NCBI RefSeq assembly: GCF_027744825.2
Contig: NC_071348.1
Span: forward strand, 17,703,563 to 17,767,562
Direction: 5' to 3'
Length of the DNA stretch: 64,000 bases
DNA from: Synchiropus splendidus
Lineage: Eukaryota; Chordata; Actinopteri; Syngnathiformes; Callionymidae
Both the position numbers and the translations under genes were made by a program. The notes beneath the pieces are model-generated. The model was given only the letters and a program-made list of their open reading frames with translations. It had not been told where the DNA came from and did no database searches. Shown here piece by piece: positions 1 through 22,126 of the stretch. How positions within the stretch are numbered: position 1 is the first letter of the stretch; each line of letters begins with the position of its first letter.

Positions 1-2249
1 TTCATGTTCTGAAGATTTCCTTCAAAGTTATGGCACAATGCAGAAAACGCGTTTTCAGCCTGAGATATGGTGGGTTCCGGAACGCCAAACATAAAAATGT
101 TGATGACTTTGGAAAAACACTTCAGACAGCTTAGATTTGATGTGCAACGACTCGAAAGTCCCTTTCTGCTACAGTGGGAGGTGAAAATTCCATGTTCTGA
201 AGCTCCCCTATAAAGTTAAGGCACAATGCAGATAACGCGTTTTCAGCCTGAGATAAGGTGGGTTCCGGAACGCCAAACATAAAAATGTTGGTAACTTTGG
301 AAAAACACTTCAGAAAGCTTAGATTTGATGTGCAACTACTAGAAAGACCCTTTCTGCTATAGTGGGAGGTCGAAATTTCATGTTCTGAAGCTTCCCTGAG
401 AAGTTATGGGAAAATGCAGAAAACGATTTTTCAGCCTGAGACAAGGTGGGTTCCGAAACGCCAAACATAAAAATGTTGATAACTTTCGAAAAACACTTCG
501 GACAGCTTAGATCTGATGTGCAACTACTAGAAAGACCCTTTGTGCTATAGTGGGAGGTGAAAATTTCATGTTCTGAAGCTTCCTTGCAAAGTTATGGCAC
601 AATGCAGAAAACGCGTTTTCAGCATGAGATAAGGTTGATTCCGGAACGCCAAACATAACAATGTTGATAACTTTGGAAAAACACTTCAGACAACTTAGAT
701 TTGATGTGCAACTACTCGAAAGACCCTTTCTGCTATCGTGGGAGGTGAACATTTCATGTTCTGAAGCTTCCCAGAGAAGTTATGGCACAATGCAGAAAAC
801 GCGTTTTCAGCCCGATATAAGGTCGTTTCTGGAACGCCAACATAAAAAATGTTGATAGCTTTCGAAAAAACATTTCAGACAGCTTAGATTTGATGTGCAA
901 CTACTAGAAAGACCCTTTCTGCTATAGTGGGAGGTTAAAATTTCATGTTCTGAAGCTTTCCTGCAAAGTTAAGGATCAATGCACAAAACGGGTTTTCAGC
1001 CTGAGATATGGTGGGTTCCGGAACGCCAAACATAAAAATGTTGATGACTTTGGAAAAACACTTCAGACAGCTTAGATTTGATGTGCAACGAATTGAAAGA
1101 CCCTTTCTGCTACAGTGGGAGGTTAAAATTTCATGTTCTGAAGCTTCCCTGCAAATTTATGGCACAATGCAAAAAACGCGTTTTCAGCCTGAGATAAGTT
1201 GAGTTCCCGAACGCCAAACATAAAAATGTTGGTAACTTTGGAAAAACACTTCAGACCGCTTAGATTTGATGTGCAACTACTAGAAGGACCCTTTCTGCTA
1301 TGGTGGGAGGTGAAAATTCCATGTTCTGAAGCTCCCCTGAAAAGTTAAGGCACAATGCAGAAAACGCGTTTTCAGCCTGAGATAAGGTGGGTTCCGGAAC
1401 GCCAAACATAAAAATGTTGGTAACTTTGGAAAAACACTTCAGACAGCTTAGATTTGATGTGCAACTACTAGAAAGACCCTTTCTGCTTTAGAGGGAGGTG
1501 AAAATTTCATGTTCTGAAGCTTCCCTGCAAAGTTAAGCATCAATGCAGAAAACGCGTTTTCAGCCTGAGATAAGTTGAGTTCCGGAACGCCAAACATAAA
1601 AATGTTGATTACTTTGGAAAAAAACTTCAGACCGCTTAGATTTGATGTGCAACTACTACAAAGACCCTGTCTGTGAGAGTGGGAGTTGAAAATTTCATGT
1701 TCTGAAGCTTCCCTGCAAAGTTATGGGATAATGCAGAAAACGCGTTTTCAGCCTGAGATAAGGTGGGTCCCGGAACGCCAAACATAAAAATGTTGATAAC
1801 TTTGAAAAACATTGCAGACAGCTTAGATTTGATGTGCAACTACTAGAAATACCCTATCTGCTATAGTGGGAGGTGAAACTTTCATGTTCTGAAGCTTCCC
1901 TGCAAAGTCAAGGAACAATGCAGTAAACGCGTTTTCAGCCTGAGATAAGGTGGGTTCCGGAACGCCAAACACAAAAATGTTGACAACCTTGGAAAAACAC
2001 TTCAGACAGCTTAGATTTGACGTGCAACTACAAGAAAGACCCTTTCTGCTATAGTGGGAGGTCAAATTTTCATGTTCTAAAGCTTTCCTGCAAAGTTATG
2101 GCACAATGCAGAAAACGCGTTTTCAGCCTGAGATAAGGTGGGTCCCGGAACGCCAAACATAAAAATGTAGCTAACTTTCGAAAAACACTTCAGACCGCTT
2201 AGATTTGATGTGCAATTACTAGAAGTACCCTTTCTGTTATAGTGGGAGG
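1..2249 (+). repeat. Satellite array, left tract (about 12 monomers of ~188 bp)
   Basis: Head-to-tail monomers of about 188 bp. The landmark CATGTTCTGAAG recurs at 567, 755 and 944, giving spacings of 188 and 189. Each monomer carries the palindromic core AAAACGCGTTTT, the palindrome TTCCGGAA, the string CCAAACATAAAAATGTTG, and CTACTAGAAAGACCCTTTCTG. All copies point the same way. Short ORFs of 60-80 codons arise because the monomer is rich in open frames, but 188 is not a multiple of 3, so no frame continues from one monomer to the next. No gene is supported here. The tract ends inside a monomer at the retrovirus insertion. Confidence 0.95.
2245..2249. other. Target-site duplication, left copy (GGAGG), retrovirus
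   Basis: GGAGG lies immediately before the 5' LTR (which starts TGTTGTATAC) and is repeated immediately after the 3' LTR at 22122-22126. The satellite monomer reads continuously across the two copies. A 5-bp duplication indicates integrase-mediated insertion. Confidence 0.9.
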
Positions 2250-2289
2250 TGTTGTATACACTGGAAGTTCGAAAATATTATAATCAAAA

Positions 2290-2385
2290 CCTGCTAAATA
2301 ATATTTGATATTGTTTCTGTTTTTTATCATTAATGGACCTGCTAAATAATATTTGATATTGTTTTTGATTTTTTATCATTAATTG
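2290..2385 (+). repeat. 48-bp direct duplication in U3
   Basis: Two copies of a 48-bp unit starting CCTGCTAAATAATATTTG (at 2290 and 2338), differing by a few bases. U3 duplications of this sort often hold enhancer elements; that role is inference. The same pair occurs in the 3' LTR. Confidence 0.85.
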
Positions 2386-2541
2386 TTTAATGTTTCAAAC
2401 TTTAGTGAACCTGTATGCGTTTGATCATGCGCGTTTGAACTCACGAACAGCTGTGTGCTTGGATCTGAGAATGACCTTGAAGGCGCGCTCATCTGAAGTC
2501 ATGAGAGAGCGGCCATCTTGAACTTAGTTTGAACCTGTGCG

Positions 2542-2640
2542 CACGTGCTGACAAAATGGAGTGGATGTACTGACCTAATATGGTGAACCGGGCATCAGTG
2601 ACGTATAAAAAATGATGTAAGTGCTGACGCAATTGACACT
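2542..2640 (+). promoter_or_regulatory. U3 cluster of CRE/AP-1-like TGAC motifs with an E-box
   Basis: CACGTG at 2542-2547 is followed by five TGAC cores within about 90 bp, including a CRE-like TGACGTA near 2598 and TGACGCAAT near 2623. The context CTGAC is repeated three times with small changes. This is compatible with bZIP-responsive transcription, but no factor can be assigned from sequence alone. A second TATA-like string (TATAAAA, 2604-2610) lies within the cluster. Confidence 0.45.
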
Positions 2641-2786
2641 AATATGATCTATCACCGAACATGTATCCTTTTGAGGGAGGAACTTCAAAAGGCCACCTGG
2701 AGAAAAAACAAGATAAGTTATAGATATGACTAATTGGCTTGGCGTGAGAAAACGGATGTCGGTATGTCTTCAAAGCCGTGTGTCGC

Positions 2787-2794
2787 TATATAAG
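2787..2794 (+). promoter_or_regulatory. LTR core promoter TATA box
   Basis: TATATAAG in the context CGCTATATAAGCGCTCGG. A start site about 25-30 bp downstream would fall near 2815, ahead of a pyrimidine-rich stretch. The spacing to the AATAAA at 3416 defines an R of roughly 600 nt. It is preferred over the TATAAAA at 2604 because of its GC-rich flanks and the TC-rich initiator-like sequence behind it. Confidence 0.65.
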
Positions 2795-2855
2795 CGCTCG
2801 GAGATGTGACCCTGAGTTCTTGCTCTTTTTGGATCTTCGCCCGCGTTTGTCCGCC

Positions 2856-2861
2856 GTAAGT
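2856..2861 (+). promoter_or_regulatory. Candidate major splice donor inside R (GTAAGT)
   Basis: CCGCC|GTAAGT is a consensus 5' splice site about 40 nt downstream of the predicted start. Spumaviruses place their major donor in R, so this position fits a spuma-like plan. A second good donor, AG|GTGAGT, starts at 3522 in U5. Which one is used cannot be read from sequence. Confidence 0.5.
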
Positions 2862-2968
2862 TTTTATCTTATCTTGGGACGGTGCTCTTGCTGTTTGCTC
2901 TCGGACCATTTGATTTCAACTCATCTTTTATTTCCTCTTTTACTATTTTTGAATTAATCCTTTTTTAT

Positions 2969-3252
2969 TGAAGTGTTTTTGATTATATGGTTTTGAAGTA
3001 TTTTAATTATACGGCTTTTGAAGTGTTTTTGATTATATGGTTTTGAAGTATTTTTAATTATACGGCTTTTGAAGTGTTTTTGATTATATGGTTTTGAAGT
3101 ATTTTTAATTATACGGCTTTTGAAGTGTTTTTGATTATATGGTTTTGAAGTATTTTTAATTATACGGCTTTTGAAGTATTTTTGATTATATGGTTTTGAA
3201 GTATTTTAATTATACGGCTTTTGAAGTATTTTTGATTATATGGTTTTTGAAG
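2969..3252 (+). repeat. Tandem repeat in R, six 50-51-bp units
   Basis: GATTATATGG recurs at 2981, 3031, 3082, 3133, 3184 and 3234. Each unit is two half-units, one ending ATTATATGG and one ending ATTATACGG, each introduced by TTTTGAAGT. The copies are nearly identical and have the same number in both LTRs. The array is AT-rich and would be present at both ends of the viral RNA. Confidence 0.9.
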
Positions 3253-3262
3253 TATATGTACT

Positions 3263-3320
3263 AGTACCAGCGTCTGGCGGTACTTTTGATATTGTTGGGT
3301 ATCAGCGTCTGGCAATACCC
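3263..3320 (+). promoter_or_regulatory. Two tandem hairpins with a shared loop and covarying stems
   Basis: Hairpin 1: AGTACC (3263-3268) pairs with GGTACT (3279-3284). Hairpin 2: GGGTAT (3297-3302) pairs with ATACCC (3315-3320). Both enclose the same 11 bases, CAGCGTCTGGC (3268-3278 and 3303-3313). The stems differ in sequence but keep pairing, which argues for selection on structure. They lie about 100 nt before the polyadenylation signal. The 3' LTR has the same pair at 21384-21441. The function is unknown; a TAR-like protein-binding site or control of polyadenylation are possibilities. Confidence 0.7.
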
Positions 3321-3415
3321 TTGAGTTTATGGATTTTATTGTTTTTGGTTGACTTTGCTGTTTTTACTATTCTTTTATTAATTTTTTGAAGAAACATTTT
3401 TGTGACAAAAAACAA

Positions 3416-3421
3416 AATAAA
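3416..3421 (+). terminator. Polyadenylation signal AATAAA (5' LTR)
   Basis: A canonical AATAAA downstream of the TATA box and R repeats. The 3' LTR counterpart is 21537-21542 and would end the viral transcripts. Cleavage near 3440 would close R. Confidence 0.7.
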
Positions 3422-3999
3422 ATTGAGTACGAATTAAGTACTGAAAAGGCACAACGGCGTGGATCCCTGACTACTAAAGAATCAACTGGCTCCTACCTAC
3501 TACCATCAATTGGGTTATAGGTGAGTTACTGTTTGATTTCCTCCTGTTGCACATTTAATGAGTGTCTCACATGGCAGCATTATTCCATCCTGAATTATTG
3601 TGTCAATGATTAGGTGGTAGTTTTAGGCATTTATGGGGAAAATGTTATTTGAAAGGAATGGATTTAGGATCCGATCATGAGTCCCTAAACGAAGTTAAGT
3701 AAAGAGACTACGATAAGGTGTAGCATTGTAAGGTCAAGAACCTGTTTCTTAACAGGTCGGGCTAATTAAATAACCCGCTCAGTGAAGCGCCGACACTACT
3801 CACTAATATAATAAGGTATAGTTGATATGCTTATTATAGATTTAGAACCGTGTCCGCAACAAGAGGCTGACTGAGTTGACCAACCGAGGGGCCCTTTACC
3901 AGAGAGGCAAAGGGAGGTAGTGTGCTTGGAACTAGGGACGGCTTATGTTATAGCTAATCGCCTTGTACACAAGACCTTGAAAACCTAAACCCGACGACA

Positions 4000-4017
4000 T
4001 GGCGCCCGAACAGGGAC
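4000..4017 (+). other. Primer binding site, tRNA-Lys3 type
   Basis: TGGCGCCCGAACAGGGAC directly abuts the CA end of the 5' LTR. It is the 18-nt complement of the 3' end of tRNA-Lys3, the primer class used by primate lentiviruses. Spumaviruses use a different lysine tRNA (Lys1,2), so this differs from the rest of the spuma-like plan. Confidence 0.95.
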
Positions 4018-4449
4018 ATGATTGAAAAACGTACAATCTATTTGTGAGTAACTGGACCACAGATTAAAATTCTGGCGGGAAAAGTTCGGTAGTGAATAGA
4101 TGGATCCTACAATCTCTGAGTTTTGAATCAAAGAGAAAGATTCAGGCTCTATCACTCGACAACGTACGATCGTGTTGACTCTACAATTTACCGAAAGACT
4201 GTCCCTTGGGACTGATCACCCCGAGCAGGATAGTTAAAGTATTAAGGTAATTGTAGTACAACTATATAATATAGCTGGAATACAGAAGTACAGCAAAAAG
4301 TCCCGTGAGGCCTTATAACGGGCACCCCATGGTAAAGAGTCCGCTAAGGACAACTGGGGAACTGCAGCAGGAAGCAGCGGCATAGTTCGGGAAACTGTTC
4401 ATAGCCGGTAAAGTGAATTCCTTAAAAATAATTTGACTGAGATTGAAAA
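4018..4449 (+). other. 5' untranslated leader with possible packaging structure
   Basis: 432 bp with no long ORF, between the primer site and gag. Visible pairings: CCCGT (4302-4306) with ACGGG (4318-4322), and CCCCA (4325-4329) with TGGGG (4355-4359), the latter enclosing GTCC (4339-4342) with GGAC (4348-4351). Retroviral leaders in this place normally hold dimerisation and packaging signals; assigning them here is inference from position and pairing. Confidence 0.55.
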
Positions 4450-7400
4450 ATGGAAATGAGCAAAGAGGTTGTGCCAAAAAGTGGTGGAGCTCTTAAAAGA
4501 AGAGCTTCCATAGCTGAGTCTGAGGTTGTGACTGCTCCCCCTGATATGTGGGTGCTGAGATCTTTTCTGATAATCGATACACGATTAGAAAACCAGGAAT
4601 TTTGGGACATCTTGCCACCCGGCTCGTATACGCTTCTGAACCCACGAAGATGTCCGAGACCAACCGATGGTGCGGGGGTGGCTCGTTGGGTGAAAGAAAA
4701 ATTTGGTGAACAAGTCGAGAAGTTTGATCAAGAATACTCTGAGAACTGGGACCCAGGCGAGGCACGTCCTTTGGACACAGGGGAGTCGAAGTTACAAACG
4801 ATATCAATGGCTCATTACTCGCCATATGACGACAAGAACCACGAGGGCTCCTTTCGGATGCTTTCAGAAACTTATTACAACTCCTTGAGCCATGCTAAAA
4901 CGGAAGCTGTCATAATTCCTGTCTTCGGAACCGGGGTGTTTAATTACCCCCTCGAGAAGGCAGTGCAAACTTGTCTTGAACATGCTCAACATTGGGTGAA
5001 CTATAACTTTGAATCCGCCCGAATGGTGATCCTCTTGGCCTCCGAGGCTGGGCTACGGCAGGAAATTATCAAACAACTGGTAGAGAGGAATAAGGTGTAT
5101 CCGGTGAAAGTTCAGGATTATGCAGCGACTCACGGTTGTCCGCTTGACGCAACCTTGGTTGATGGTTTAATGAAGAAGCCCAAAGTGAGCAAGTTGTATA
5201 AGGAGTCTACCCATGACCATGACGCAGGGAGTATTACTGAAAGTTTTGCAAGTCAATACCAGCACTACCCAAGCCCTGCTAGGCCGGGGATTCATCCCCG
5301 AGGTGAACTCCAAAATGTTCAATCGATGTACCAAGCAACTGGTACACTGCCCCTGACAAATAAGGGACCACTGGACACTGCGTTACAAGAGATAGTCAAA
5401 CTTCCGACTGCGCCACCCGCCTATGAAGCTGACCCAGCTCTTAGGGACCATGGCTATGCCACGCCAGCGAGGGTCCGCTTTTTTGATTCGTCAGAAAATG
5501 ACCCCGATGATGGGGAATCCCTGAGCCTGAGTGAAACTGACAGAGGAGTCATTGCAAGAAGTTTAGAGAGGATGTCAGAGCAACTTAGTGCAATAACACG
5601 GCAAATAGGAAGCCAACAAGATCAGCTCGACAGGAGTTTGAGTCAGGGAGGATTAGGATGCATTCTAGGTTCCCAGGGAAATCGCCCGCATGCTATACAA
5701 CCACTCAATCCCTCTAATGGCTCCATAGGGGCCTTGGATCTCAACGCCTCGGAAAACCCTGATGTCAGAGACCCAGGATCGAGTGAGCCGGCCTTGGGTG
5801 AAATCCCAGTCATTAGAATGGATAATGGATCCATGTTTGTCATTTTACACACTTCAACGGCCAAATATAAGCCAACTGGGGACAATGTAGTAATCCCCAT
5901 AAGGAAGTGGAATGGACTGGAGGAAGTGAAGGCATTCACTCCGTGGAGAAAGAAAATTGGTAAAAGGGACTTCAATCACCGTCTCTCACTTTTGGGAGAA
6001 GAGGTTCGTGATCGAAATTACCGAGCTCTGGAACAGGTCCATCAGTTAGATTTTACTGAGTGCGAGGACTCCCCCGTAGCCGCCGTTTATGTGACGCCAC
6101 TGGTGCATTCGCGTTCTGTAGAAGGGCAGATACACGCTGGAGCCAGTAAAATTGCTCGGCTTGAGTTGTCTAAGGTGACCCTTGACCTTAATCCCCCCGA
6201 ATCATTGGGAGTCCTCACAAATGCACAGCTAGCACGGTGGGTGACCGCCACCTATGCGACGCTGACCTCATTAGGTTACTTTGAGACAGTTACGTGTCTG
6301 ATAGGGGACCGACAACTAGCAAAGACACTATACGACACAGTGTTACTTTTGAAGCAGGATAAATTTGCAAAGTATTTGGAAAATTCCCCTCAGCTACAAC
6401 GTGGCCTGGAGGATGAGGAGCACAGAGAGCCAGAGGAACCTCGGGTCCCCTTTCGACCCTCCTCTGCGTCTACACCACGTCCCCCAACCCCCCTACCTAG
6501 ATCTCCGCGGGTTGAACAATCACCTTCACCCCCCACTGACTGTCAACCCACCCGAATGGTACAAGCAAGAAATTCTAGAGGGCGAAAGATAACGTGGGGA
6601 GATTATGATGCCACCAAATGGCCGTGCGACCCCGATGAGGAAGGATTAAGAGAACGCCCTACGGCTCATGCTTATGATCCAGTTGTACACCAGCAACCTC
6701 CGGAGCCAGATTGGAACAAAGAAATAATCACACCTCAATGGTTTCCTCATGATAGGAGGGAAAGGGCCCGGAGAATGCGATCTCCCTCCTCTGAGGAAAT
6801 AGGTGGATGGCAGGGAGTGTCTAGGTCCTTTAAACAAGCATATCTTGCACGTGGATATGATGCTCATCGCAATTCCTTAACAGATATCTACTCCCACATG
6901 CCCAGGGCCACCCGCTTGCCGACAGACTCATGGGAGAGATGGTCTCCATGCCCCTCAGACTCCGACGACCAGAGTGACGATGACTCTGGCAGTGATAGTG
7001 ACCCGACTCTGGGTCCACAGCCAGACCCCCCAACTCCTTCAAGACAGGGTAGCAGGATGGCCTCCACAGGAAGGATAGGACGACAGCGTACTCAGCTGGC
7101 GGTCTCAATCCTTGCAGGGGGCCCCCCATCAGAGCCCAGACAAAACACTGACGTTAGAGTGTCAAATAAAATTACTGTAGCAGACCTGTGTAAGGCACTC
7201 CCGAAAAGGAAAGATAAGGAGTCCAACTGCGAATACGTTAGAAGGTTGAATAAGGAATTGTCTCCATCTCAAATGGCTGACCCGGTTATTAGTAAATACG
7301 TCTCCAAAGGGAACGGGCTAGACTTGGTTCAAGGTCAGACATTAATGCATTTGCTGACCTCTGATATGGCTACTCTGCTCACAAGCCAAGTGGAGGCAAC

Positions 7401-8103
7401 CATTCGAGATCTGGTTGATAAAGTGAATAAAGGAGAGATGTCCCTTCTGCAAGCTTATTCCATACTGGCAGATGAAGGGGCTGATGAGTCGCAGGTCAAA
7501 CATTTCCTGGTACAGATTAACTGCCCTGATCAGGCCAAATTGGTTCTGGAGTTCCTCCAAGCGAAGGGACTGGATGCAAAGACTGAGGTTATCTCCCGCC
7601 ACAGCTCTGTGATGGCTGTTAGAAGAGCCCTCAGAAAAGAAAAAGAGAGACCTGATGTTCCCGAGGCTCGACCGTCAAAAAACGAGCAGAGGGGGAAGTC
7701 TCTTCCCCCTTTCGGAAAAGTAACGGCAAAACCCCAATACGGCCCGGCTCGCACTCAGTCTACCTTTCCACCGAGAAAGGATCGAAATCAGCAAGACATC
7801 AGGCCCAATGGACAGGGTGGGGCCAAGCGCCCTCCATTCAACAAGAACGTGAATGGCTCAGCCTCGAATGCCCCCAGACAGCCTCATTGGAGGCAGGATC
7901 GTGCCGACAATCGATCCCAAGCAAAAGGCCAGGATCGTCCCCGTTCAAAACCCGTGTCCGAGGAAGAATGGAAGGCGATGACCCAAGAGCAGAGGGAAGC
8001 AGTAATACTTGCAGCGGCCCGACGAAACCAGGATATGGGAAGAGATCTGACCGCAGCCCAGAGGAGAGTGCTAGAAAAGCACGAGCCCAAAACCCAACAA
8101 TGA
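4450..8103 (+). CDS. gag: Gag polyprotein with N-terminal macro domain
   Basis: 1,217 aa, starting at an ATG with A at -3 and G at +4, the first large ORF after the leader. Residues about 55-215 resemble a macro domain: strand GSYTLLNP (58-65), a DGAGVARW segment (73-80) in place of the usual glycine-rich loop, a YSPYDD strand end (123-128), and VIIPVFGTGVFNYPLEKAV (154-172), the phosphate-loop signature of ADP-ribose-binding macro domains. The second Asn of the usual NAAN loop is absent, so catalysis is doubtful. PTAP (319-322) overlaps PPAY (322-325), which are Tsg101 and Nedd4-family late-domain motifs. Residues 360-395 look coiled-coil. 453-645 and 905-1060 are the structured capsid candidates, separated by a Pro-rich and acidic linker. 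The C terminus (1060-1217) is Arg/Lys-rich with no CCHC knuckle, as in spumavirus Gag. It is far longer than usual (500-700 aa). The stop overlaps the Pol ATG. Confidence 0.9.
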   Translation: MEMSKEVVPKSGGALKRRASIAESEVVTAPPDMWVLRSFLIIDTRLENQEFWDILPPGSYTLLNPRRCPRPTDGAGVARWVKEKFGEQVEKFDQEYSENWDPGEARPLDTGESKLQTISMAHYSPYDDKNHEGSFRMLSETYYNSLSHAKTEAVIIPVFGTGVFNYPLEKAVQTCLEHAQHWVNYNFESARMVILLASEAGLRQEIIKQLVERNKVYPVKVQDYAATHGCPLDATLVDGLMKKPKVSKLYKESTHDHDAGSITESFASQYQHYPSPARPGIHPRGELQNVQSMYQATGTLPLTNKGPLDTALQEIVKLPTAPPAYEADPALRDHGYATPARVRFFDSSENDPDDGESLSLSETDRGVIARSLERMSEQLSAITRQIGSQQDQLDRSLSQGGLGCILGSQGNRPHAIQPLNPSNGSIGALDLNASENPDVRDPGSSEPALGEIPVIRMDNGSMFVILHTSTAKYKPTGDNVVIPIRKWNGLEEVKAFTPWRKKIGKRDFNHRLSLLGEEVRDRNYRALEQVHQLDFTECEDSPVAAVYVTPLVHSRSVEGQIHAGASKIARLELSKVTLDLNPPESLGVLTNAQLARWVTATYATLTSLGYFETVTCLIGDRQLAKTLYDTVLLLKQDKFAKYLENSPQLQRGLEDEEHREPEEPRVPFRPSSASTPRPPTPLPRSPRVEQSPSPPTDCQPTRMVQARNSRGRKITWGDYDATKWPCDPDEEGLRERPTAHAYDPVVHQQPPEPDWNKEIITPQWFPHDRRERARRMRSPSSEEIGGWQGVSRSFKQAYLARGYDAHRNSLTDIYSHMPRATRLPTDSWERWSPCPSDSDDQSDDDSGSDSDPTLGPQPDPPTPSRQGSRMASTGRIGRQRTQLAVSILAGGPPSEPRQNTDVRVSNKITVADLCKALPKRKDKESNCEYVRRLNKELSPSQMADPVISKYVSKGNGLDLVQGQTLMHLLTSDMATLLTSQVEATIRDLVDKVNKGEMSLLQAYSILADEGADESQVKHFLVQINCPDQAKLVLEFLQAKGLDAKTEVISRHSSVMAVRRALRKEKERPDVPEARPSKNEQRGKSLPPFGKVTAKPQYGPARTQSTFPPRKDRNQQDIRPNGQGGAKRPPFNKNVNGSASNAPRQPHWRQDRADNRSQAKGQDRPRSKPVSEEEWKAMTQEQREAVILAAARRNQDMGRDLTAAQRRVLEKHEPKTQQ
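8060..8061 (+). promoter_or_regulatory. Possible splice acceptor for a separate pol mRNA (weak)
   Basis: CCGCAGCCCAG|AGG ends at 8061. No ATG occurs between here and the Pol ATG at 8100, so an exon starting here would present that ATG first. The pyrimidine tract is poor, so this is only a candidate. Confidence 0.25.
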
Positions 8104-11100
8104 GGCCCTATAAAGTGCAGATTTGGGTTAAAAATCAAAAAAGAGATTGTTACTATGACACTGGAACAGACATATCCATATTACCAAAGGAGTGGTTAGA
8201 TGAAGAACTCGATCAGAAGGTGCTAGTAAAATTGGCTAATGGAGATGTTACTATGTTGGCTCTAGGAAGATTTAATGGTAAAAAGGTGGCAATAGGGCCG
8301 AACCCTTTATTGTCTCCAAATGACTCAGAATGGATTATAGACGCCCCTTCCTCAAATTGGATGAGAGAGGTTAACAGGATCACGGCCATAGAAAAATTAG
8401 TGTGTACTTCACACATAAAGGACAAGGCACGCCTAGAGAAGATCCTTTATTCTGCCGAAGTGGCCCGATTTAAAAATGATGTAGGATTAATGAAAACTGA
8501 ACCATATGTCATCAGGGGTGGCCTCCCAGGTAAACAGAAGCAGTACCCATTAGGTAAATATGAAGATCAATTGCTAGCAGTGTTCAAAGAATTGGAACAA
8601 CTAGGGGTCATTGAGAAAATTAAAGAACCACCCTGCTTAATGCCAGTACAAGCAGTACCAAAAAAGGATGGTACTGTCAGACCTGTCCATAACCTAAAAA
8701 TGTTAAATGACGTGACAGTGAAAGACACTAGACAAATCATCAATCCCCGACAGACCATGTTAAAAATACGCCCGGGAGAATATAACTCCAGTATTGACCT
8801 TGCAAATGGATTCTGGTCCGTACCACTGGCCGAGGAAAGCAGGCCGAAAACCTGTTTTATGATTAAAGGACAAGGCTACATGTGGACTAGGCTTCCCCAA
8901 GGATTTGTGAATTCCCCTAACGCATTTCAGGAACGTATGGAGAAACTGTTGCAAGACTTGCCAGTCACGTGTTATATAGACGACATATTCATCTCCACGG
9001 AGACAGAAGAAGAACATCTCGAACTTTTGGAAGAAGTAATCCGGAGACTGAAAGACCATGGAATGAAAATTGGAATCGCCAAATGTGAGATAGGAGTACC
9101 TCAAGTCAAATATCTGGGTGTCCTAGTCACTAAGCATGCGATAACTTCCACTGACGACTATCTCCAAAATCTGCACCCTACTACGCTTAAAGAGCTAGAG
9201 AAATGTTTAGGAAAATTGGGGTGGCTACGAAGTATGATCCCTTATTATTCCACCTTAGCGAGACCTGTCGAGTTGATCAAAAATAAGGTCAGGACATTTG
9301 ACAAACGATCCCTAAAGTTAATAGAACATGATAGAATGCTAACGCCAGAAGAAATTGAAACCTGGAACTGCCTTATACAACAAATTCTCACGGATGGGGT
9401 GAAACTCGCTCCGTACCGAGATGGACAAAATATCTCTGTAAAAGTGTTAGAGGAAAAGGAAAATGGTGGATGCGCGGCAGTCTACGAGGAAAGCAGTGAC
9501 ACACCAATTTGTTACGTATCCGTCAGGTATTCACCCACTGAGAGTCGATTTGCCCCAGCAGAAAGAGAACTCAGGTTGTTATGGAAAGTTTACACGGAAC
9601 TGGCTTCCAACTTAGGCCAGGTCTATGTAAAATGTACAGTACAGAATGACCTCACTAAAGAAACGGTCAAAGATACGGTGGAATTCGCTAAAGCTTATGC
9701 CTCTAGATGGGGAAAGTGGAAGCAGATGCTCTTGGATCCGAATTGGTCATTTATAATGGCCAAGTCTAAGCAGCAGCCAAAAAACCCTGCAATATCCCAG
9801 CCGGATTATACAGGAATATACACCCTCTTTACTGATGGAAGTAAAACTGCACAAGACCCCGAGGGATATTGGGGTTTTGTGCTTTACAAACGAGATAAAC
9901 CTCTGTATAAAGAAAAAGGAAGAATGGGCAAGACAGCACAGGAAGCCGAGTTACAGGCAGTTGTCAGCGGACTGCAATATGTAAAGAAGAAGGGAATAAA
10001 ATCCTTACGAATTGTGACTGACAGTTGGTATGTGTCGGAAGGACTGAAAGATAACCTTAAATACTGGCAGCAGCGAGACTTCCAGAATTACAAAGGAAAA
10101 GAGTTGGAACATCGTGACCTATGGATAGTGGTGAACCAATTGCTACAACACATAAAACTTTGGGTGACCCATGTCAATAGTCACACAGGAATCCAGGATT
10201 TTGATCACATGGGAAATGACGTGGTTGACAAACTAGTGCAGACTAGGGCGGTTGTGGTAGGCACTTTGATTTTTCCTGATAAATGGAAGAATGACCAAGG
10301 GAAGCTTGTCATTCCTCAGGAAGAAAGGCTGGATTATGTCCGGCATATTCATCGTGCTTTGTTACATGTCGGAAATGAGAGAACGCGAAGATGGATGGTT
10401 GATAACGGGATTGAGGCCGGTCCTCTCAAAGACACCATATCTCTAGTTAGACATGACTGCGAGATATTCATGGAGAAGGGATTGTTACCTCCTATTGCTT
10501 ATCAGGAAGGAAAAATTGCTGAAGAGTTCCCGGGCATTTCCGCGTCTATGGATGTAGGGGTCCTGGGGAGTCACTATGGCATATATAAAAAATTCCTGGT
10601 GATAGCTGACAATGGGGGAGGACACACACGAGTCTACCCCATTAAGAAAGAAACCACAAAGACAGCTAAAGAGTGTGTAATGTCATTTATTCAGGGGAAT
10701 CCAGTCAAAACCCTCAGATCGGATAATGCCGCCATGTTTACTTCCAAGCACTTTCGTTCATGGTTGGAGCAGGAAGGGATACGACATGTCTTATCCATCC
10801 CGCATCAATCCAACACTAACGGAGTCGCGGAACGTGCAGTGCGCGCGGCAAAATCACAAATACTACTGTATAAGCACAGATGGCACTTACCTGAAAACCT
10901 CTTTGCCATTAACCAACAACTCAGTCTCCCCAAGTTACGGGGCTCTACCCCTGCCCACTCTCACGAGCCCTCTGTATCGTTACAGGTGGGAAGTGAGGTG
11001 TGGATACTCGCCACCGGAAAATCTACCACAATAGTAAAAGTCGAAGGGAACGTACTTACGGGTAAAGATGGCCACAGGTACCACCCCAAGCAACTACGAC

Positions 11101-11129
11101 TTAAGTATAAAAATCAGGATGGAAGCTGA
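8100..11129 (+). CDS. pol: Pol polyprotein: protease, RT, RNase H, integrase
   Basis: The ATG at 8100 overlaps the gag stop (ATGA). The frame is -1 to gag and open upstream to at least 7887, with another in-frame ATG at 7968. No heptameric slippery site was seen near the gag end, so a separate mRNA or reinitiation is more likely than frameshifting. Numbered from 7887: protease DTG at 91-93; RT from about 200 to 420 with D304 (SSIDLANG), LPQGF (336-340) and catalytic YIDD (363-366); RNase H with D650, E688, D712 and D778; integrase zinc region H822/H827 with C858; DDE core D889, D946, E982 with 35 residues between the last two; and an SH3-like C-terminal piece (about 1033-1075). The second integrase zinc-binding Cys is replaced by F861, which is unusual or damaging. 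The product from 8100 is 1,009 aa, near the size of spuma and gamma Pol proteins. Confidence 0.93.
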   Translation: MRPYKVQIWVKNQKRDCYYDTGTDISILPKEWLDEELDQKVLVKLANGDVTMLALGRFNGKKVAIGPNPLLSPNDSEWIIDAPSSNWMREVNRITAIEKLVCTSHIKDKARLEKILYSAEVARFKNDVGLMKTEPYVIRGGLPGKQKQYPLGKYEDQLLAVFKELEQLGVIEKIKEPPCLMPVQAVPKKDGTVRPVHNLKMLNDVTVKDTRQIINPRQTMLKIRPGEYNSSIDLANGFWSVPLAEESRPKTCFMIKGQGYMWTRLPQGFVNSPNAFQERMEKLLQDLPVTCYIDDIFISTETEEEHLELLEEVIRRLKDHGMKIGIAKCEIGVPQVKYLGVLVTKHAITSTDDYLQNLHPTTLKELEKCLGKLGWLRSMIPYYSTLARPVELIKNKVRTFDKRSLKLIEHDRMLTPEEIETWNCLIQQILTDGVKLAPYRDGQNISVKVLEEKENGGCAAVYEESSDTPICYVSVRYSPTESRFAPAERELRLLWKVYTELASNLGQVYVKCTVQNDLTKETVKDTVEFAKAYASRWGKWKQMLLDPNWSFIMAKSKQQPKNPAISQPDYTGIYTLFTDGSKTAQDPEGYWGFVLYKRDKPLYKEKGRMGKTAQEAELQAVVSGLQYVKKKGIKSLRIVTDSWYVSEGLKDNLKYWQQRDFQNYKGKELEHRDLWIVVNQLLQHIKLWVTHVNSHTGIQDFDHMGNDVVDKLVQTRAVVVGTLIFPDKWKNDQGKLVIPQEERLDYVRHIHRALLHVGNERTRRWMVDNGIEAGPLKDTISLVRHDCEIFMEKGLLPPIAYQEGKIAEEFPGISASMDVGVLGSHYGIYKKFLVIADNGGGHTRVYPIKKETTKTAKECVMSFIQGNPVKTLRSDNAAMFTSKHFRSWLEQEGIRHVLSIPHQSNTNGVAERAVRAAKSQILLYKHRWHLPENLFAINQQLSLPKLRGSTPAHSHEPSVSLQVGSEVWILATGKSTTIVKVEGNVLTGKDGHRYHPKQLRLKYKNQDGS

Positions 11130-11487: not shown

Positions 11488-12679
11488 GGACTCGTGGGGA
11501 TGTCGATATCAAATACTACGCAAAGACACCCATTGCGGGCCATGCACCTGTGGCCGACGTAACGGGGTTTGGAATGTGTGCGATACTGGCACCCCCTGGC
11601 AGATAAACCCAGCACAGTTCTTGGCGCTACGGTATCGTTTCCACTCAAACGATCACCTTCCTCAGCCGCCGTTTGCTTTACGGGCCAGTGTCATAGATTC
11701 TTGGAACTGCCCCATTCTGATATACCAGACTGTGATGACTATTGGCTATGACAAATTGTCATCTAAACAGGAAAAGAAACTCTCAGTCATCCCCAGGGAT
11801 ACCACCATGAAGTGGGAAGACTTCCTCCCTTGGAAGTGGGAGGATGGCTTGCGTTTGTCTGGAGATGGAAGCCTATCCTTGCCAGGCTATAGCCAGAGAG
11901 ATTGGGAATCCACCTCCATGGGAAGGTGGTGGACCGAACAAATATGGCCCCAAGATAGAGTGGCTAAGGGGAAAATATTCTGCCCAGACGTGTACAACTA
12001 CCCGCATTTAACCAACAATAAGAGGATTTTTACAACTTCTGGAACCTTGCCCAGGCATGCTAAGGAGGTACAGGAAGCCAGGGTCTCCACTATTGAACGT
12101 AACCTTATTCTTGTTACTGAATGCGGCCCACGTGTAGTGTCTGGGACCGCCCATGTCCTTATCTTGTTCACTGGCTTCATATGGTGCCCGTTGGGGGTCT
12201 TCATAGAAGTTGACACAAAGGACTTGATGATACTGACTAATGTCTCGATCCCGGTCAGACCTGTAGCAAGGACAAAGGTGACTGGATGGTGGTCAGCCTG
12301 GCTGAGGAGGAGAGCTAAGCTCCGCCGTACTGGATTTACTGAAGCTGTCTTGGATCATGAGATGCCAGGCAGCACGTTTTTCCAGCAGCACCAGGGGCCA
12401 TGCCAGGGTGGTGCGATTGGTCCAGAGGGGGAGAGGAATAATCCCAAGAACAGTTCGGCTATTATGAACCAATCAGGAGAGATCAAAAAGACGGCGTCGC
12501 AAGAACTAATGCCACCACCCTCTTCTCACCCACAGGATCTTGATAGTCCTGGGTCAGAAGACGAGGAGGTGCCTAAAGTACGCGATAAAGGCAAGCGACC
12601 AGCTAGTGGTAAGCAATCGCGATTAGCCCTCCTTCTCAAAAGAAGAAAGGGAAAGAAGAATAATGAATTTATGGGATAA
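11450..12679 (+). CDS. Accessory protein, C-terminal frame, paralogous to the 3' protein
   Basis: Open frame from 11450 to the TAA at 12677-12679. Its first ATG is at 11735 (314 aa), so the upstream part is probably reached from the 11068 frame or by splicing. A Cys-rich stretch (CGPCTC, about 11536-11553) precedes the region similar to the 3' protein. Shared ordered motifs are DHLP...ALRA with DKLP...AIRA, FLPWKWEDGLRL with FHPSYMMEGMVL, NLILVT-x5-VVS with NLLMVT-x5-VVS, and TGWWS with SGYYE. The C terminus is acidic (SEDEE) followed by a Lys/Arg-rich tail (LLLKRRKGKKNN) that could be a nuclear signal. It lacks the acidic tail of its paralogue. Nuclear regulation or antagonism of the 3' protein is a guess. 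The end overlaps env by 17 nt. Confidence 0.6.
   Translation, partial: WGLPPSRFANAARDSWGCRYQILRKDTHCGPCTCGRRNGVWNVCDTGTPWQINPAQFLALRYRFHSNDHLPQPPFALRASVIDSWNCPILIYQTVMTIGYDKLSSKQEKKLSVIPRDTTMKWEDFLPWKWEDGLRLSGDGSLSLPGYSQRDWESTSMGRWWTEQIWPQDRVAKGKIFCPDVYNYPHLTNNKRIFTTSGTLPRHAKEVQEARVSTIERNLILVTECGPRVVSGTAHVLILFTGFIWCPLGVFIEVDTKDLMILTNVSIPVRPVARTKVTGWWSAWLRRRAKLRRTGFTEAVLDHEMPGSTFFQQHQGPCQGGAIGPEGERNNPKNSSAIMNQSGEIKKTASQELMPPPSSHPQDLDSPGSEDEEVPKVRDKGKRPASGKQSRLALLLKRRKGKKNNEFMG
12512..12535 (+). promoter_or_regulatory. Strong splice acceptor for the env mRNA
   Basis: CCACCACCCTCTTCTCACCCACAG is a near-ideal pyrimidine tract plus CAG, ending at 12535. No ATG occurs between 12536 and the env ATG at 12663, so env would be the first start codon of the spliced RNA. 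This supports expression of env from a message spliced from a donor in the LTR or leader. Confidence 0.7.
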
Positions 12680-15600
12680 ATTCTGGTATTGGAGAGCTAG
12701 GCGCTGGTGGCAGTTTAAGGCGAGACAACAATTGGCATATAAAGATCAGGCTAAGGATATACAGCACCAGACACCAGCTACAATTTCCAGGAAACAAATG
12801 AAACGCGACAAAATGATCAAGGAATGGGAGAAAACCACTAGGATGTCTCCCTTGAGTCTTTTTATAATTGGAATGCTACTATTTATATTAATATTAGTAA
12901 TAGCCTCATGGTCAAATATAGTCTATGAACATATGACCTATACCAGCAGTGTCACCCGACGTTGGAAATCGAAAACAGTACGTTGTAGAAACTGCACCGT
13001 CTTGACCCCGGATACGAAAGAAATATCTTTGCCAATTGCAACAGATAAAAATGGCACTCAATTTGATCAAGCTCTGTGGATAAAACAAGCAATTGTCTAC
13101 CTAAATATCCATGGAGCTATAAGTGGCACTTGTGAGTATGAGAAACCAAAACTTGATAGTCAGGAAGTGAAGAGTCAGGTGACCGCCAAGACACTTAAAC
13201 GGAGACGTCGCCGAAGCGCGGAAAGCCCTGTGGACAAAACTGCCGCACGTCCCACTTGGACAGCTGCTGCTATGTCAATTACCCCCAGTCTGATCAATCA
13301 AACGGGAAATATTAATGTGATCGAAAACCATATGGCCAGTAGCATGACTACACCTGAACCTGGAAAAGATACCAGGAATAATGGCACGACAGGAATAGAT
13401 ACTCAGACTACTTTATCTGCCAAAAATAATGTAGGGAATCTCGGTGCAGCAATGACTGAAAAGAAGACAGTCATGGCCACATCTCCTATAGATTCCATAA
13501 TCATGTATACCCCAACAATGGCCCCTGATCAAATGGAGACTAACATAATCTCAACACCTGATGGCAAAACAGTTGACGTAAATCCGATGGCCCCAATGTT
13601 CACATCGGAGCCCGCAGATCCTCACAAGGAAGGCATGGGAGAATGTGATATCCCATTTAAAAGTGTTAACGTGTTAAATTGTGATGAAGGACTCATGGAT
13701 TGGCTTCTCCAGGCATCTCAGGCAGCGTATGAGAGGCTGTGTGAATATAAGGCCCAGTGTAAACGGAAGAATCAAACCCTATGTGAATACGACACCTGGA
13801 AAGATATAGTAACTCATTATGGACCTACCTCCAAGGAATTTGTAACAGTAAAAGTAAAGTTAATCAATCATGAAGAGATGAGACTTTCTGGATGGTCCTT
13901 CAATATCAACTCTGATAAAACTTGTTATTATAAAGTTTTTGCCCAACAAACAAGACGGGGCTGGTCGACGGGAGAAGATAGATATTATATGATGAAAACA
14001 TGCCAGAAAATCAATACCACCCATGTGTGGAATGCCCCGCTTATTAGAAGGGTTGAACAATCTATCTATAATAATAGAACATGGGAAGAAGAGCTGTGGA
14101 CAACCACAGAAGCATATGGAAATGAAGAATGGGATAAAAGTAATCAAATAGGACAACTCCTGTTAGATATAGCCCCCCTACCTTTTTCAGCTAACTCTGA
14201 TCCCGATGTGTTAAACACTGATTCGGCTGACCCTGTTTCTAGAAGAGTTAGAAGAGAGCTGGAGTACACATGTTCTAAAGAAATGTTCCAAAAGGTAGAG
14301 ACAAAAACCATGCTGGTGTTACTTGAATCCATTCTTAACACTGTAACCGCAGCGAACTCAGCTAAAAGTGAAGGAAAGAAGGAACAACAAGTTAAGTTTT
14401 TTCTCTCCATACCAGAAGAGACACAATTCGACAATTGTCTTTATTTAATGACAAATGGTTCTAAACCATGGTCGGACGGCAAGTCTCCCCCGGACACCCA
14501 TTTCGGGGAAGAGGAGGTTTATCCTAGGTGTCAACCAGGGAAAAATTGCAGAAACAAAGGGCCCAAGAGTGATGAGTATGACACTAGCCCACGAGACACT
14601 GGCTTACGTAATGTTTATTGGAGGTGGCATCTGTTGACCACCATGAGTGAACAACATAGGGACAAGATTAATGGATCAGGAAAAGAGTACATTGCAGATC
14701 AGCATCCAGATAGTAAATTCTGGAAAATTTGGCTGAAATACCCTGTGGTACAGAGAAGAGTCATGTGGTACAAATTAAGGGCATTGCAAGAAGATGGTAT
14801 ATTATGCCATAATAAACAGTTTAATGGTAAAGGAATGGAAGAAGGAAATGACTGTCACAAAGAACCATGTGAGTGCCGAAGGGACCAAATAGGCCTCGCG
14901 ATCCCTATGATGACGCAGCAACCTTGGAAAAACTGGGTCAGAAATAATCAGTCAGTTTGGTGGACTGAAGCTAAGAGATGTTTATCTCAAAAGCTTGGTA
15001 TAAACATAACTCATGTCAAATACGCATATCAGCTCATTAATGAGAAGCCTAACAATACAGAGAATAGGATATTTTATCCTATGAGAGGAAAAGACTGGGC
15101 AGAGGCGATGGAGTATTGTACATCGGACCTACCAGTTAATTTATCCTGCCCAAGCGGCCAACCAACAGGTCAACAACTGAATAGTCATAAACACATTATT
15201 CTTCCCACATGTCTGAACGATAAAGCTAAAAATGATCCGACGGTTTTCTTTAGGGCATGGGAATGGTCACAGTTGGCTGGTCTCATTTTGGGACAAGGAT
15301 TAGGGTGGAATTCGTTTGACACAGAAAGTTTAGAAATGCTGATATGGCCACACCTAGTATCGTACGATGAATTACAAACTCCTAGCGATGGAGGAAAAAA
15401 TACCACTGTGATACATAGGTTCCTTGTAAACCCAGGATTGCCAGATTCCGTGAATCCACTCAACACATTAAGAGGAAAGGTTAGAAACTATGAAGTAAAA
15501 GTACAGACTGAGCAAGGAGAATGGGGATATGATTCAGTATACCAGGAGAATATTACTGAATGGAATAAACCATCTACGGAGGGACTCCAAAATGATGACC

Positions 15601-17147
15601 AAAGAACGTGGTACGCCGCTCTTAAAGAAGCAACGTTATTGTTTAACCCAAGCCAATTATGGGGCGACATTACTCAAATAAAAGGAGGAAAAAGAACCCC
15701 GGGAATGGCCCTTCAGGATCAATTAGCTAATTATCAAAATTTCTTAAAAAGGAAAGAAGTCTCCTGGAATGACTCCAATGGGGAAGTATCTATACGAGCC
15801 TGGCCTCATCTCGCAAGGGAACCACTTTTCGTAGAGGCCTCGCCAAAAGATAGTGGACAGAAAAAGGGAAAAGTTGAAGATATATCTACAAGGTATACAG
15901 CTACATTTCTGTTGCCCGATCATCTGAAGACAGTCAAACAATATTTTAAACAACACCCGGAATGGCGCCACGTAAGAACAATTCAGTCATCATTCCCGTT
16001 TGTCCATACTACTCTAATGACTACGGAAAGATTTCTGATAGCAGGGCTAGACCTCTTTCAGGTCAATAATACAAGACAAACACAGAGTCAGGTGTTTGAT
16101 AAAACTGAATTTAAGAAGACTTGGTTCCCCATTATAAGTAGTGTTCAATATCCACAACTTAGATGGCAACCCCAAGACCCCGAGCATTTTAGTTTAAACG
16201 TTACAGGATACCAAGGGTGTTTCCGAGCACCTAACCTGAAGCCTAAGGCAGTTTATAGTCACGACTCTAATCCATGTGACCCACATCAGTGGGGTTATAT
16301 CCCGTGTAATAGTTCTGGATGTTTTAATGGGTCCCAAGTAGCCAAGCAACTGAAAAGAGAGCATGAATCCTATTTTACTACTAGGTGGGGAACACATGGT
16401 ATATTGTTGAATAATAGAGAAAAAATGTGTGGACGGCTTGGAATACATGTAGCCATACCACACTGGCCGAAAGTGGCTGCTCCGATTGGGCTTTTAGAAA
16501 GTATAAATCCAGGGTTCCTCATGTATAATCGATATGAAACATATCGAGATCAACTATGTAACAAAGACAATGTGTATGCAAAGTCACAGACACATGTTTT
16601 TGAATTGGATGATATTATCCTATCAAAGATGACATACAGTAATTCATCTCCCTGGTACATTCCAAAAGGAGAGAGAAGCTGCGTATATGAGGAATATAGT
16701 GCCCCTGAGATCAATATAACCAAGGACCCATATGCCTGTGAGAAATTAAACGATTATTGGCATGTTGTACGTGACTTTCGGAAGAAAGTACCGACGGCAG
16801 GATGGCTAGGATTTTTTGGAATGATGTCGGAAGCTATGATGTATGGAATAGGACAGGGAGTTGTAGATACAGCGGCAGCTGTGTGGGAAATTATCGAATT
16901 TATATGGTGGTACCTAAAATGGATACTGCTTGTATTAGCGATCCTCGTAGCTCTCGCCGTAATCTCTAAAGTAGTCACTTTATGTCGGTGCCTTAATAGT
17001 ATATGCTGCTATCCGTGCCGTGCAGTCCAAAGACGAAAAGGAAGACAAGAGAAAGAGTTCTTGAGAAAGGCTCTTCGAGATGTCAAAGAAGAAATAAAGA
17101 AAAAGAAGCAAGAAAAGTGGAAAAAAGTCAATGGACAAAGGGTCTAG
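12663..17147 (+). CDS. env: Envelope glycoprotein precursor, 1,494 aa
   Basis: A membrane glycoprotein for attachment and fusion, judged by position and topology. The ATG at 12663 is the first after a strong splice acceptor. The N terminus is cytoplasmic in character and rich in Trp and Arg (WDKFWYW, RRWWQF at 4-18), then a hydrophobic segment at about 62-82 forms a leader membrane anchor. This long N-terminal leader is typical of spumavirus Env. Two furin-type basic sites are visible: RRRRR ending at residue 184, and RRVRR ending at 531. A Thr/Asn-rich stretch (200-320) looks mucin-like, and many N-X-S/T sequons and Cys residues follow. Near the C terminus are a Gly-rich amphipathic stretch (about 1380-1410), a membrane anchor (about 1415-1439), a Cys-rich palmitoylation-like motif (CRCLNSICCYPC) and a Lys-rich tail. 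It is about 1.5 times the length of spumavirus Env. Family identity beyond topology is not established. Confidence 0.85.
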   Translation: MNLWDKFWYWRARRWWQFKARQQLAYKDQAKDIQHQTPATISRKQMKRDKMIKEWEKTTRMSPLSLFIIGMLLFILILVIASWSNIVYEHMTYTSSVTRRWKSKTVRCRNCTVLTPDTKEISLPIATDKNGTQFDQALWIKQAIVYLNIHGAISGTCEYEKPKLDSQEVKSQVTAKTLKRRRRRSAESPVDKTAARPTWTAAAMSITPSLINQTGNINVIENHMASSMTTPEPGKDTRNNGTTGIDTQTTLSAKNNVGNLGAAMTEKKTVMATSPIDSIIMYTPTMAPDQMETNIISTPDGKTVDVNPMAPMFTSEPADPHKEGMGECDIPFKSVNVLNCDEGLMDWLLQASQAAYERLCEYKAQCKRKNQTLCEYDTWKDIVTHYGPTSKEFVTVKVKLINHEEMRLSGWSFNINSDKTCYYKVFAQQTRRGWSTGEDRYYMMKTCQKINTTHVWNAPLIRRVEQSIYNNRTWEEELWTTTEAYGNEEWDKSNQIGQLLLDIAPLPFSANSDPDVLNTDSADPVSRRVRRELEYTCSKEMFQKVETKTMLVLLESILNTVTAANSAKSEGKKEQQVKFFLSIPEETQFDNCLYLMTNGSKPWSDGKSPPDTHFGEEEVYPRCQPGKNCRNKGPKSDEYDTSPRDTGLRNVYWRWHLLTTMSEQHRDKINGSGKEYIADQHPDSKFWKIWLKYPVVQRRVMWYKLRALQEDGILCHNKQFNGKGMEEGNDCHKEPCECRRDQIGLAIPMMTQQPWKNWVRNNQSVWWTEAKRCLSQKLGINITHVKYAYQLINEKPNNTENRIFYPMRGKDWAEAMEYCTSDLPVNLSCPSGQPTGQQLNSHKHIILPTCLNDKAKNDPTVFFRAWEWSQLAGLILGQGLGWNSFDTESLEMLIWPHLVSYDELQTPSDGGKNTTVIHRFLVNPGLPDSVNPLNTLRGKVRNYEVKVQTEQGEWGYDSVYQENITEWNKPSTEGLQNDDQRTWYAALKEATLLFNPSQLWGDITQIKGGKRTPGMALQDQLANYQNFLKRKEVSWNDSNGEVSIRAWPHLAREPLFVEASPKDSGQKKGKVEDISTRYTATFLLPDHLKTVKQYFKQHPEWRHVRTIQSSFPFVHTTLMTTERFLIAGLDLFQVNNTRQTQSQVFDKTEFKKTWFPIISSVQYPQLRWQPQDPEHFSLNVTGYQGCFRAPNLKPKAVYSHDSNPCDPHQWGYIPCNSSGCFNGSQVAKQLKREHESYFTTRWGTHGILLNNREKMCGRLGIHVAIPHWPKVAAPIGLLESINPGFLMYNRYETYRDQLCNKDNVYAKSQTHVFELDDIILSKMTYSNSSPWYIPKGERSCVYEEYSAPEINITKDPYACEKLNDYWHVVRDFRKKVPTAGWLGFFGMMSEAMMYGIGQGVVDTAAAVWEIIEFIWWYLKWILLVLAILVALAVISKVVTLCRCLNSICCYPCRAVQRRKGRQEKEFLRKALRDVKEEIKKKKQEKWKKVNGQRV

Positions 17148-17474
17148 CTAAGTTCAGGTTAGGCATCCCACTTAGGTATTAAGGTACCGGACACGAAAGT
17201 GCCTGAGGGGGAAGTAAATAAGGAAAATCTTAGGATGAAAATCAAAATTTTAACCTGAGTGTTAGGCATCATTTTAATAATATTAATATTACTTAACTTC
17301 AAAGTTACCCAGTTCTCCTAAAGAGAGGACTGGTGTTGAAGGATGGACAATACACCGTATAACGTTACTAATACATCTTAATCAGTACCAAAGTACTAGT
17401 TTACGATATCAATTCAGGATTGATTAAAATAAGAACTAAATGACACAAATTCACAGAGCAATGTACTACGCTTC
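17148..17474 (+). other. Gap between env and the 3' ORFs
   Basis: 327 bp, AT-rich, with no ORF over 60 codons. It contains several short ATG starts followed by stops, including one at 17461 just before the next ORF. An AG after TATCAATTC (near 17415) could be a splice acceptor. Nothing else is recognisable. Confidence 0.5.
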
Positions 17475-17684: not shown

Positions 17685-17695
17685 TCGCGCTGAAC

Positions 17696-18346
17696 ATGGC
17701 AAGCAACCAGACGAACACCACCGGGTATCACCCCGAGAGTCCTCCCCAGGTAGGGGCAGATTTTATTGATCTTGCAATACTGTCCATTTTACAAGTAATA
17801 TTTGTTCCTCCATTACATAAGCAAAAAACTTGTCTGGGATGCATCCTCGGATTAATAGTAGGGTGCATTCGCTTTTTCGTTAGAAAAGCATCCCCTTTAC
17901 ATGCCTCGTTCAGCCTCATTGGATGCGCGGGTTTAAATTTAAGCCCTCAGAGACCATGGCTTTGGCCGACCGCGGTCACCATAGTATACGTACTGGACAG
18001 TCTGTACACCGAATTGGCCCTTTTGTTTTGCATAGGTTCTCAGTGTACCTATTGCATTATAGCAGGAACGGCAATATATTTCATACTCATAGGTTTATTG
18101 CTGACATTAATTTGGTCAACCCTGGGGAGGTATAAAAGGGCAGCACTTAATCTTACTGCGCAATGGATAATTCTGATGATATGGATTCTGTTCAAAAAGT
18201 TAGCTGGAGGAACTTCTTTGTATGTCTCTGTGTTTTATATAGGTTACCTGATGGGGACTTGTTACCCCATAAAGATATGGAAAACTTCGAACAGCATAAG
18301 GCTGTTTGGGATGGCGTCTACTATTCGTAGACCTTCTCAGAATTGA
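17696..18346 (+). CDS. Multi-pass membrane accessory protein, 216 aa
   Basis: 216 aa from an ATG. The N terminus is polar with two sequons (NQT, NTT at 4-9). Hydrophobic segments are visible at about 23-39, 46-62, 90-112, 118-140, 155-169 and 175-190, predicting around six membrane spans. It has Cys residues within and between spans (C46, C49, C57, C77, C112, C117, C120) and a short basic C terminus (IRRPSQN). I recognise no family. Multi-pass proteins are not standard retroviral products; viroporin-like or receptor-modulating roles are speculation. The frame is intact despite its hydrophobic composition. A TATAAAAGG box sits inside its coding region at 18131. Confidence 0.6.
   Translation: MASNQTNTTGYHPESPPQVGADFIDLAILSILQVIFVPPLHKQKTCLGCILGLIVGCIRFFVRKASPLHASFSLIGCAGLNLSPQRPWLWPTAVTIVYVLDSLYTELALLFCIGSQCTYCIIAGTAIYFILIGLLLTLIWSTLGRYKRAALNLTAQWIILMIWILFKKLAGGTSLYVSVFYIGYLMGTCYPIKIWKTSNSIRLFGMASTIRRPSQN
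18131..18139 (+). promoter_or_regulatory. Candidate internal promoter TATA box
   Basis: TATAAAAGG is a full TATA consensus with GC-rich flanks (GGGGAGG before, GCAGC after). It lies 225 bp upstream of the ATG at 18356. Spumaviruses start their regulatory-gene transcripts from an internal promoter just upstream of those genes, and the position matches. The bases also encode YKR of the membrane protein, so chance is possible. Confidence 0.45.
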
Positions 18347-18367
18347 CATTTTGTAATGTTTCTACAG
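18332..18367 (+). promoter_or_regulatory. Two candidate splice acceptors before the 3' regulatory ORF
   Basis: CCTTCTCAG ends at 18340, 15 nt before the ATG at 18356. TTTCTACAG ends at 18367, just inside the ORF. Use of the second would move the first in-frame ATG to 18464 (ATCATGG). Both match the acceptor consensus moderately. Confidence 0.4.
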
Positions 18368-20347: not shown

Positions 20348-20360
20348 AGGACGATATTTT

Positions 20361-22121: not shown

Positions 22122-22126
22122 GGAGG
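22122..22126. other. Target-site duplication, right copy (GGAGG), retrovirus
   Basis: GGAGG after the terminal CA, matching 2245-2249. The satellite continues with TGAAAATTCC in the correct phase. Confidence 0.9.

Follow-up and report, generated by a model that had tools for sequence, protein, structure and literature searches.

A predicted macro domain at the Gag N terminus of a foamy-like endogenous retrovirus in the fish Synchiropus splendidus

The window analysed here is a stretch of 64,000 nucleotides from the 583-Mb genome of Synchiropus splendidus (G000:C15:17703563-17767562). It contains a whole provirus of 19,872 bp (positions 2250-22121), inserted in a 188-bp satellite array. The provirus and all of its features given below lie on the + strand. 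The gag open reading frame (ORF) at 4450..8103 encodes a protein of 1217 aa, of which residues ~31-217 (4540..5100) form a predicted macro domain with a Pfam core at Gag 73-175. A preliminary description of the window had proposed such a domain at 4612-5094 (Gag 55-215), and this is borne out by Pfam, by a controlled profile-profile comparison and by the predicted structure. Two of the checks that it had called for, a profile match and a structure prediction against macro folds, gave macro, and the different fold that it had allowed for was not seen.

The Pfam Macro family (PF01661, curated cut-off 22 bits) matches the whole Gag with 34.9 bits and the isolated piece with 39.1 bits. Other copies of the element, which fall into four identity groups (A-D), score 37.6 bits (L010), 29.6 bits (L017, group C) and 29.2 bits (L019, group B). 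When a profile of 10 Gag copies is compared with solved chains, the best match is MACROD1 (E 4.1e-4), and MACROD2 and bacterial macro domains are also found. Between the Gag profile and 53 macro proteins, hhalign gives an alignment that begins at the loop-1 glycines and includes loop 2 (Gag 72-186), while 100 column shuffles and the reversed profile all remain far below the real score. The AlphaFold prediction for Gag 31-225 is a three-layer alpha/beta/alpha macro fold, which matches macro domains in the PDB and, in a viral structure library, those of toroviruses, coronaviruses and alphaviruses. As a rough fold control, another Gag stretch (440-670, alignment of 7 rows against 10 for the macro region) gave no fold, with a predicted local distance difference test score (pLDDT) of 34.3, which argues that the program does not produce the macro model by default. 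A chance match was rejected on the Pfam result, the shuffle controls and the fold. The N-terminal domain of this Gag is almost certainly a macro domain.

Several results weigh against this identification. The single Gag sequence has no match in the PDB at E 0.001, and a database of 5.8 billion proteins gave 0 matches both for Gag 1-400 (5285 candidates) and for alignment A1 of the Gag copies (1352 candidates). The group-D copy L029 reaches 18.8 bits with PF01661, under the cut-off. Only one of the five AlphaFold models is confident, and the pLDDT falls below 50 in part of loop 1 (Gag 67-74). Apart from these points, a PDB search with the N-terminal half of the domain gave one match, an enkurin-domain protein at E 0.45. 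Among the PDB fold matches of Gag 31-225 are also SPX, mitochondrial-ribosome and designed-hydrolase entries; the titles of some point to crystallisation with a carrier or to design on a different scaffold. Identities in the fold lists are 10-20%, so that a donor tree of macro domains is not supportable.

The macro domain is maintained by purifying selection during replication, under looser constraint than Pol or the conserved core of Gag, as follows from low ratios of nonsynonymous to synonymous divergence (dN/dS) and a significant nonsynonymous shortage in six pairs of copies. Between the window (group A) and L029 (group D), dN/dS is 0.17 in Gag 31-125 and 0.24 in Gag 126-225, and the rest of Gag gives 0.66 (226-310), 0.38 (311-450) and 0.09-0.11 (451-680). 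For Pol, the window and the group-D copy L039 give 0.03 (dN 0.020, dS 0.664), the group-D Pol copies L039 and L040 being different copies from the Gag copy compared. The odds ratio of nonsynonymous against synonymous change in the macro region is 0.18 for the window and L029 (p 6.5e-14), and 0.18-0.55 across the six pairs of the window, L019, L021 and L029 (all p 6.5e-14 to 0.038). The case for constraint is weakened by higher dN/dS values in some comparisons: 0.73 and 0.46 in the two macro halves for L019 and L021, 0.67 in Gag 126-225 for the window and L019, and 0.72 for L019 and L022. The constraint is also much weaker than that on Pol.

Between some groups the macro segment is more diverged than elsewhere. 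A domain swap, the first reading of this divergence, was dropped because synonymous divergence is similar elsewhere. For the window against group D, dS is 0.88 and 1.01 in the macro region, 0.53-1.04 in other parts of Gag and 0.66 (L039) and 0.65 (L040) in Pol. A plain lineage split is enough, since at synonymous sites Pol and the other Gag parts show about the same divergence as the macro region. A synonymous excess in the macro region is found in three pairs (p 0.043 for window-L021, 0.018 for window-L029 and 0.012 for L019-L021; the other three 0.37, 0.36 and 0.21), and a nonsynonymous excess in two (p 9.9e-5 for window-L021 and 5.2e-6 for L019-L021; the other four 0.38-0.79). The macro domain may thus have been exchanged, or have changed faster, in some pairs.

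A genome search with the domain returned at least 106 matches (36 in group A, 3 in B, 24 in C, 28 in D and 15 partial), all counts of copies being lower bounds. The domain is present in all four identity groups of the element. Group A has 94-100% identity over nearly the full query span; 16 of its 36 rows are at 100%, and 27 lie in open frames that measure at least 1218. Identity falls to 83-85% in group B, 72-74% in group C and ~65% in group D. When the genome was searched with Pfam, 75 matches were listed, some of them host exons, and none of the 28 group-D rows was among them. An assembly artefact was rejected, as the domain stands in open Gag-length frames in many copies and on different contigs; the same evidence disposes of a host macro gene fused to a single copy. 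When 28 loci were compared with Gag, 17 (L008-L024) matched and 11 did not. The latter include L001-L003, which resemble host PARP exons; their open frames were likened by eye to PARP9/PARP14 macro exons. Ten of the 53 matches of the L002 macro exon are teleost UniRef proteins at 59-76% identity.

One in-frame stop is present in 19 of the 24 group-C rows, listed as one TGA. L016, L023 and L024 share a stop at one place in the macro domain and have a second match to the middle piece of Gag. The stop-bearing subgroup has multiplied despite the stop in the domain, which counts against the favoured explanation given below; the subgroup is for this reason probably non-autonomous and presumably helped in trans. 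In group D, 11 rows form a same-strand run at C1:39.85-40.19 Mb, including L029, L046 and L047 (G000:C1:39930500-39949400). Four neighbouring pairs in this run are spaced 13,055-13,065 bp apart, and two units are 99.86% identical over 5.5 kb. In one unit gag is open (1184 aa), and of pol just the final 382 bases were found.

The pocket of the domain was assessed in alignment A4, which has 12 rows (selected open copies from 27 fetched gag loci, plus the window). Loop 1 lies at Gag 64-78 (4639..4683), running from N64 to G76, V77 and A78. Loop 2 is PVFGTGVFNYP at Gag 157-167 (4918..4950), the stretch already singled out as the macro pattern in the preliminary description. Invariant in 12/12 rows are D43, N64, G76, A78, G160, G162, V163, F164, N165 and P167. 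L013, a row of A1 outside A4, has Val at 160, so that G160 is not universal, and in L019 Pro replaces T161; both substitutions count against a conserved pocket.

According to an excerpt of PMC10221186, a hydrolytic macro domain requires Asn/Ser together with Gly around loop 1; in loop 2 it requires one hydrophobic and one aromatic residue. The loop-1 glycine (G76) and the V163-F164 pair of loop 2 are kept in 12/12 rows. The catalytic Asn/Ser position falls on R67/C68, with Arg at 67 in 11/12 rows, Ser in L019 and Cys at 68 in 12/12. This equivalence comes from a global alignment that was forced through a low-confidence loop, which tells against relying on it. The canonical catalytic Asn nevertheless seems not to be conserved in Gag, in contrast to active macro domains, which retain the loop-1 Asn/Ser (same excerpt). 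In an excerpt of PMC10499221, N40 mutants of SARS-CoV-2 Mac1 lose most activity and retain ADP-ribose binding. Judged from its residues, the Gag macro domain is likely to bind ADP-ribose, with hydrolysis weak or absent, since Gly and the loop-2 pair are kept, Asn/Ser is missing and the Mac1 mutants still bind. Of the two activities named in the preliminary description, removal of ADP-ribose is less likely than binding.

The provirus is bounded by a 5′ long terminal repeat (LTR) of 1750 bp (2250..3999, TG...CA) and a 3′ LTR of 1751 bp (20371..22121). The pair is 99.6% identical, with 6 mismatches and 1 gap in 1757 aligned columns. A target-site duplication, GGAGG, was read from the flanks at 2245..2249 and 22122..22126. 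The satellite array occupies 1-2244 and continues from 22127 on (searched to 28000). Directly 3′ of the 5′ LTR is a primer binding site (4000..4017), which is taken to be of the tRNA-Lys type. Gag (1217 aa) lacks a CCHC zinc knuckle in a pattern search and carries overlapping late-domain motifs at 319-325 (PTAP at 319, PPAY at 322). A profile of Gag 456-1042 has no match among solved chains at E 10.

The pol ORF (7887..11129) encodes a protease (DTG), reverse transcriptase (RT, YIDD), RNase H and integrase. The best solved relative of Pol is 7ksf, with 213 bits over Pol 81-790; the next group is Ty3, with 109 bits. Related chains are titled Peptidase A9/Reverse transcriptase/RNase H (7kse) and Pr125Pol (7o24), which are presumably foamy virus proteins. 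The Pfam family Spuma_A9PTase gives 17.2 bits on Pol, under its cut-off of 21. Searches of viral contigs, made with Gag and Pol in turn, returned nothing useful. On the Pol matches, the Gag without CCHC and the primer site, the element is classed from its sequence as a foamy-like, Spumaretrovirinae-like endogenous retrovirus.

An ORF of 367 aa without Pfam match lies between pol and env (11576..12679), at the position of acc3/acc4 in the FLERVs of fish (excerpt of PMC5512871). The env-like ORF (12663..17147, 1494 aa) has hydrophobic stretches (19-residue windows with starts at 58-72 and ~1409-1431), 22 N-glycosylation motifs, and basic motifs at 11, 180 and 528 (RVRR). It has no Pfam match over the cut-off and no match in the PDB. 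Its N-terminal hydrophobic segment is reminiscent of the foamy Env leader. Two further ORFs without Pfam match, of 216 aa (17696..18346) and 663 aa (18356..20347), follow. Elsewhere in the window, a second LTR-type retroelement with three overlapping ORFs is present at 56398-62425. Its domains are a weak zinc knuckle, aspartic protease, RT, RNase H and integrase, and it appears Ty3/gypsy-like by eye.

The favoured explanation, given about an even chance of being right, is a foamy-like fish endogenous retrovirus in whose Gag the macro domain is the globular domain at the N terminus and acts as an ADP-ribose reader. The domain stands ahead of the late-domain motif and the remaining Gag. It would bind ADP-ribose, or a related nucleotide, on proteins of the host or virus, and hydrolyse it weakly or not at all. 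Retrovirus particles, both assembling and incoming, contain many copies of Gag. A domain borne by Gag could there shield or recruit PARP-modified proteins and weaken interferon-induced PARP restriction. Whereas the macro domain of coronaviruses and alphaviruses is replicase-borne, this route would be borne by a structural protein. A more specific and more tentative version is that this lineage packages the reader in every particle, where it enters with the core to antagonise PARP defence, perhaps as a trait of such age that an amphibian retrovirus shares it.

The same conserved residues also bear on an active ADP-ribosylhydrolase, an eraser of interferon-induced PARP marks in the manner of coronavirus Mac1 or alphavirus nsP3. 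The best sequence-profile relatives of the Gag domain are MacroD-type proteins, and G76 and the V163-F164 pair agree with the residues listed in the excerpt of PMC10221186. However, the forced alignment places Arg67 (Ser in L019 alone) or Cys68 at the catalytic position, and hydrolysis as the main role is distinctly unlikely, although this argument is not final because loop 1 is poorly modelled. The seeming loss of the catalytic Asn would also suit a structural or nucleic-acid role, in which a matrix-like N-terminal domain would have RNA, membrane partners or the Env leader as ligands and would not recognise ADP-ribose. The domain sits at what we take to be the position of the N-terminal domain in foamy Gag. 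Macrodomains of the SARS-unique domain bind G-quadruplexes (excerpt of PMC7247444). The invariant columns include the ligand-pocket motifs of both loops but also other parts of the domain, which leaves a purely structural role doubtful but conceivable. A chance motif or another Rossmann-like fold would fit the missing solved-structure match of the single sequence, the four poor models of five and the low Pfam score of the group-D copy, but the Pfam, profile and fold results speak against it and make it highly improbable.

The predicted fold of the Gag domain is the same as in the macro domains of coronaviruses, toroviruses and alphaviruses and in host PARP9/PARP14, MacroD1/2 and macroH2A. The viral domains sit in non-structural polyproteins, whereas that of the provirus is in Gag. 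The FLERVs of ray-finned fish (AciFLERV, AliFLERV; excerpt of PMC5512871) resemble the provirus in gene order, in the foamy type of Pol, in the primer site (tRNA-Lys) and in their very large genome; they have an env-like ORF, with further ORFs downstream of it and between it and pol. They were compared by description only; their gag is named by position, and the words 'macro domain' are absent from the excerpt. The swordtail fish element ERV-F.1-Xeve-chr-15, compared by text only, has 0 occurrences of 'macro domain' or 'macrodomain' in an excerpt of PMC12642411.

The preliminary description had held that no retroviral Gag with a macro domain is described. This stands insofar as no description was found in the open-access literature, among the matches listed and their excerpts. 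It is weakened by the Gag of a Rhinella marina endogenous retrovirus (BFVD A0A2U9K508, 873 aa), which has a stretch predicted to take the same fold (E 3.1e-5, TM 0.62 on the query, rank 20) at 17% identity. It is weakened further by macro-domain ORFs in fish epsilon-like endogenous retroviruses (Basta et al. 2009, as cited in an excerpt of PMC4977317), although there the macro domain is an additional ORF and here it is part of a foamy-like Gag. What is new is thus a viral macro domain in the Gag of a foamy-like retrovirus, a context not found described, its novelty being limited by these ORFs and by the toad Gag.

Because its LTRs are 99.6% identical and many copies are open, this young element may still be expressed. 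The viral macro domains described in the excerpt of PMC10221186 are found in non-structural proteins. If the favoured reading is true, each particle would bring many copies of the macro domain, and these could work at the incoming core, during assembly or at budding. This raises the question of whether PARP defences hold retroviruses in check by ADP-ribosylating Gag or other proteins of the core. The selected macro domain suggests that the virus may carry a tool against host PARP defences inside its own particle.
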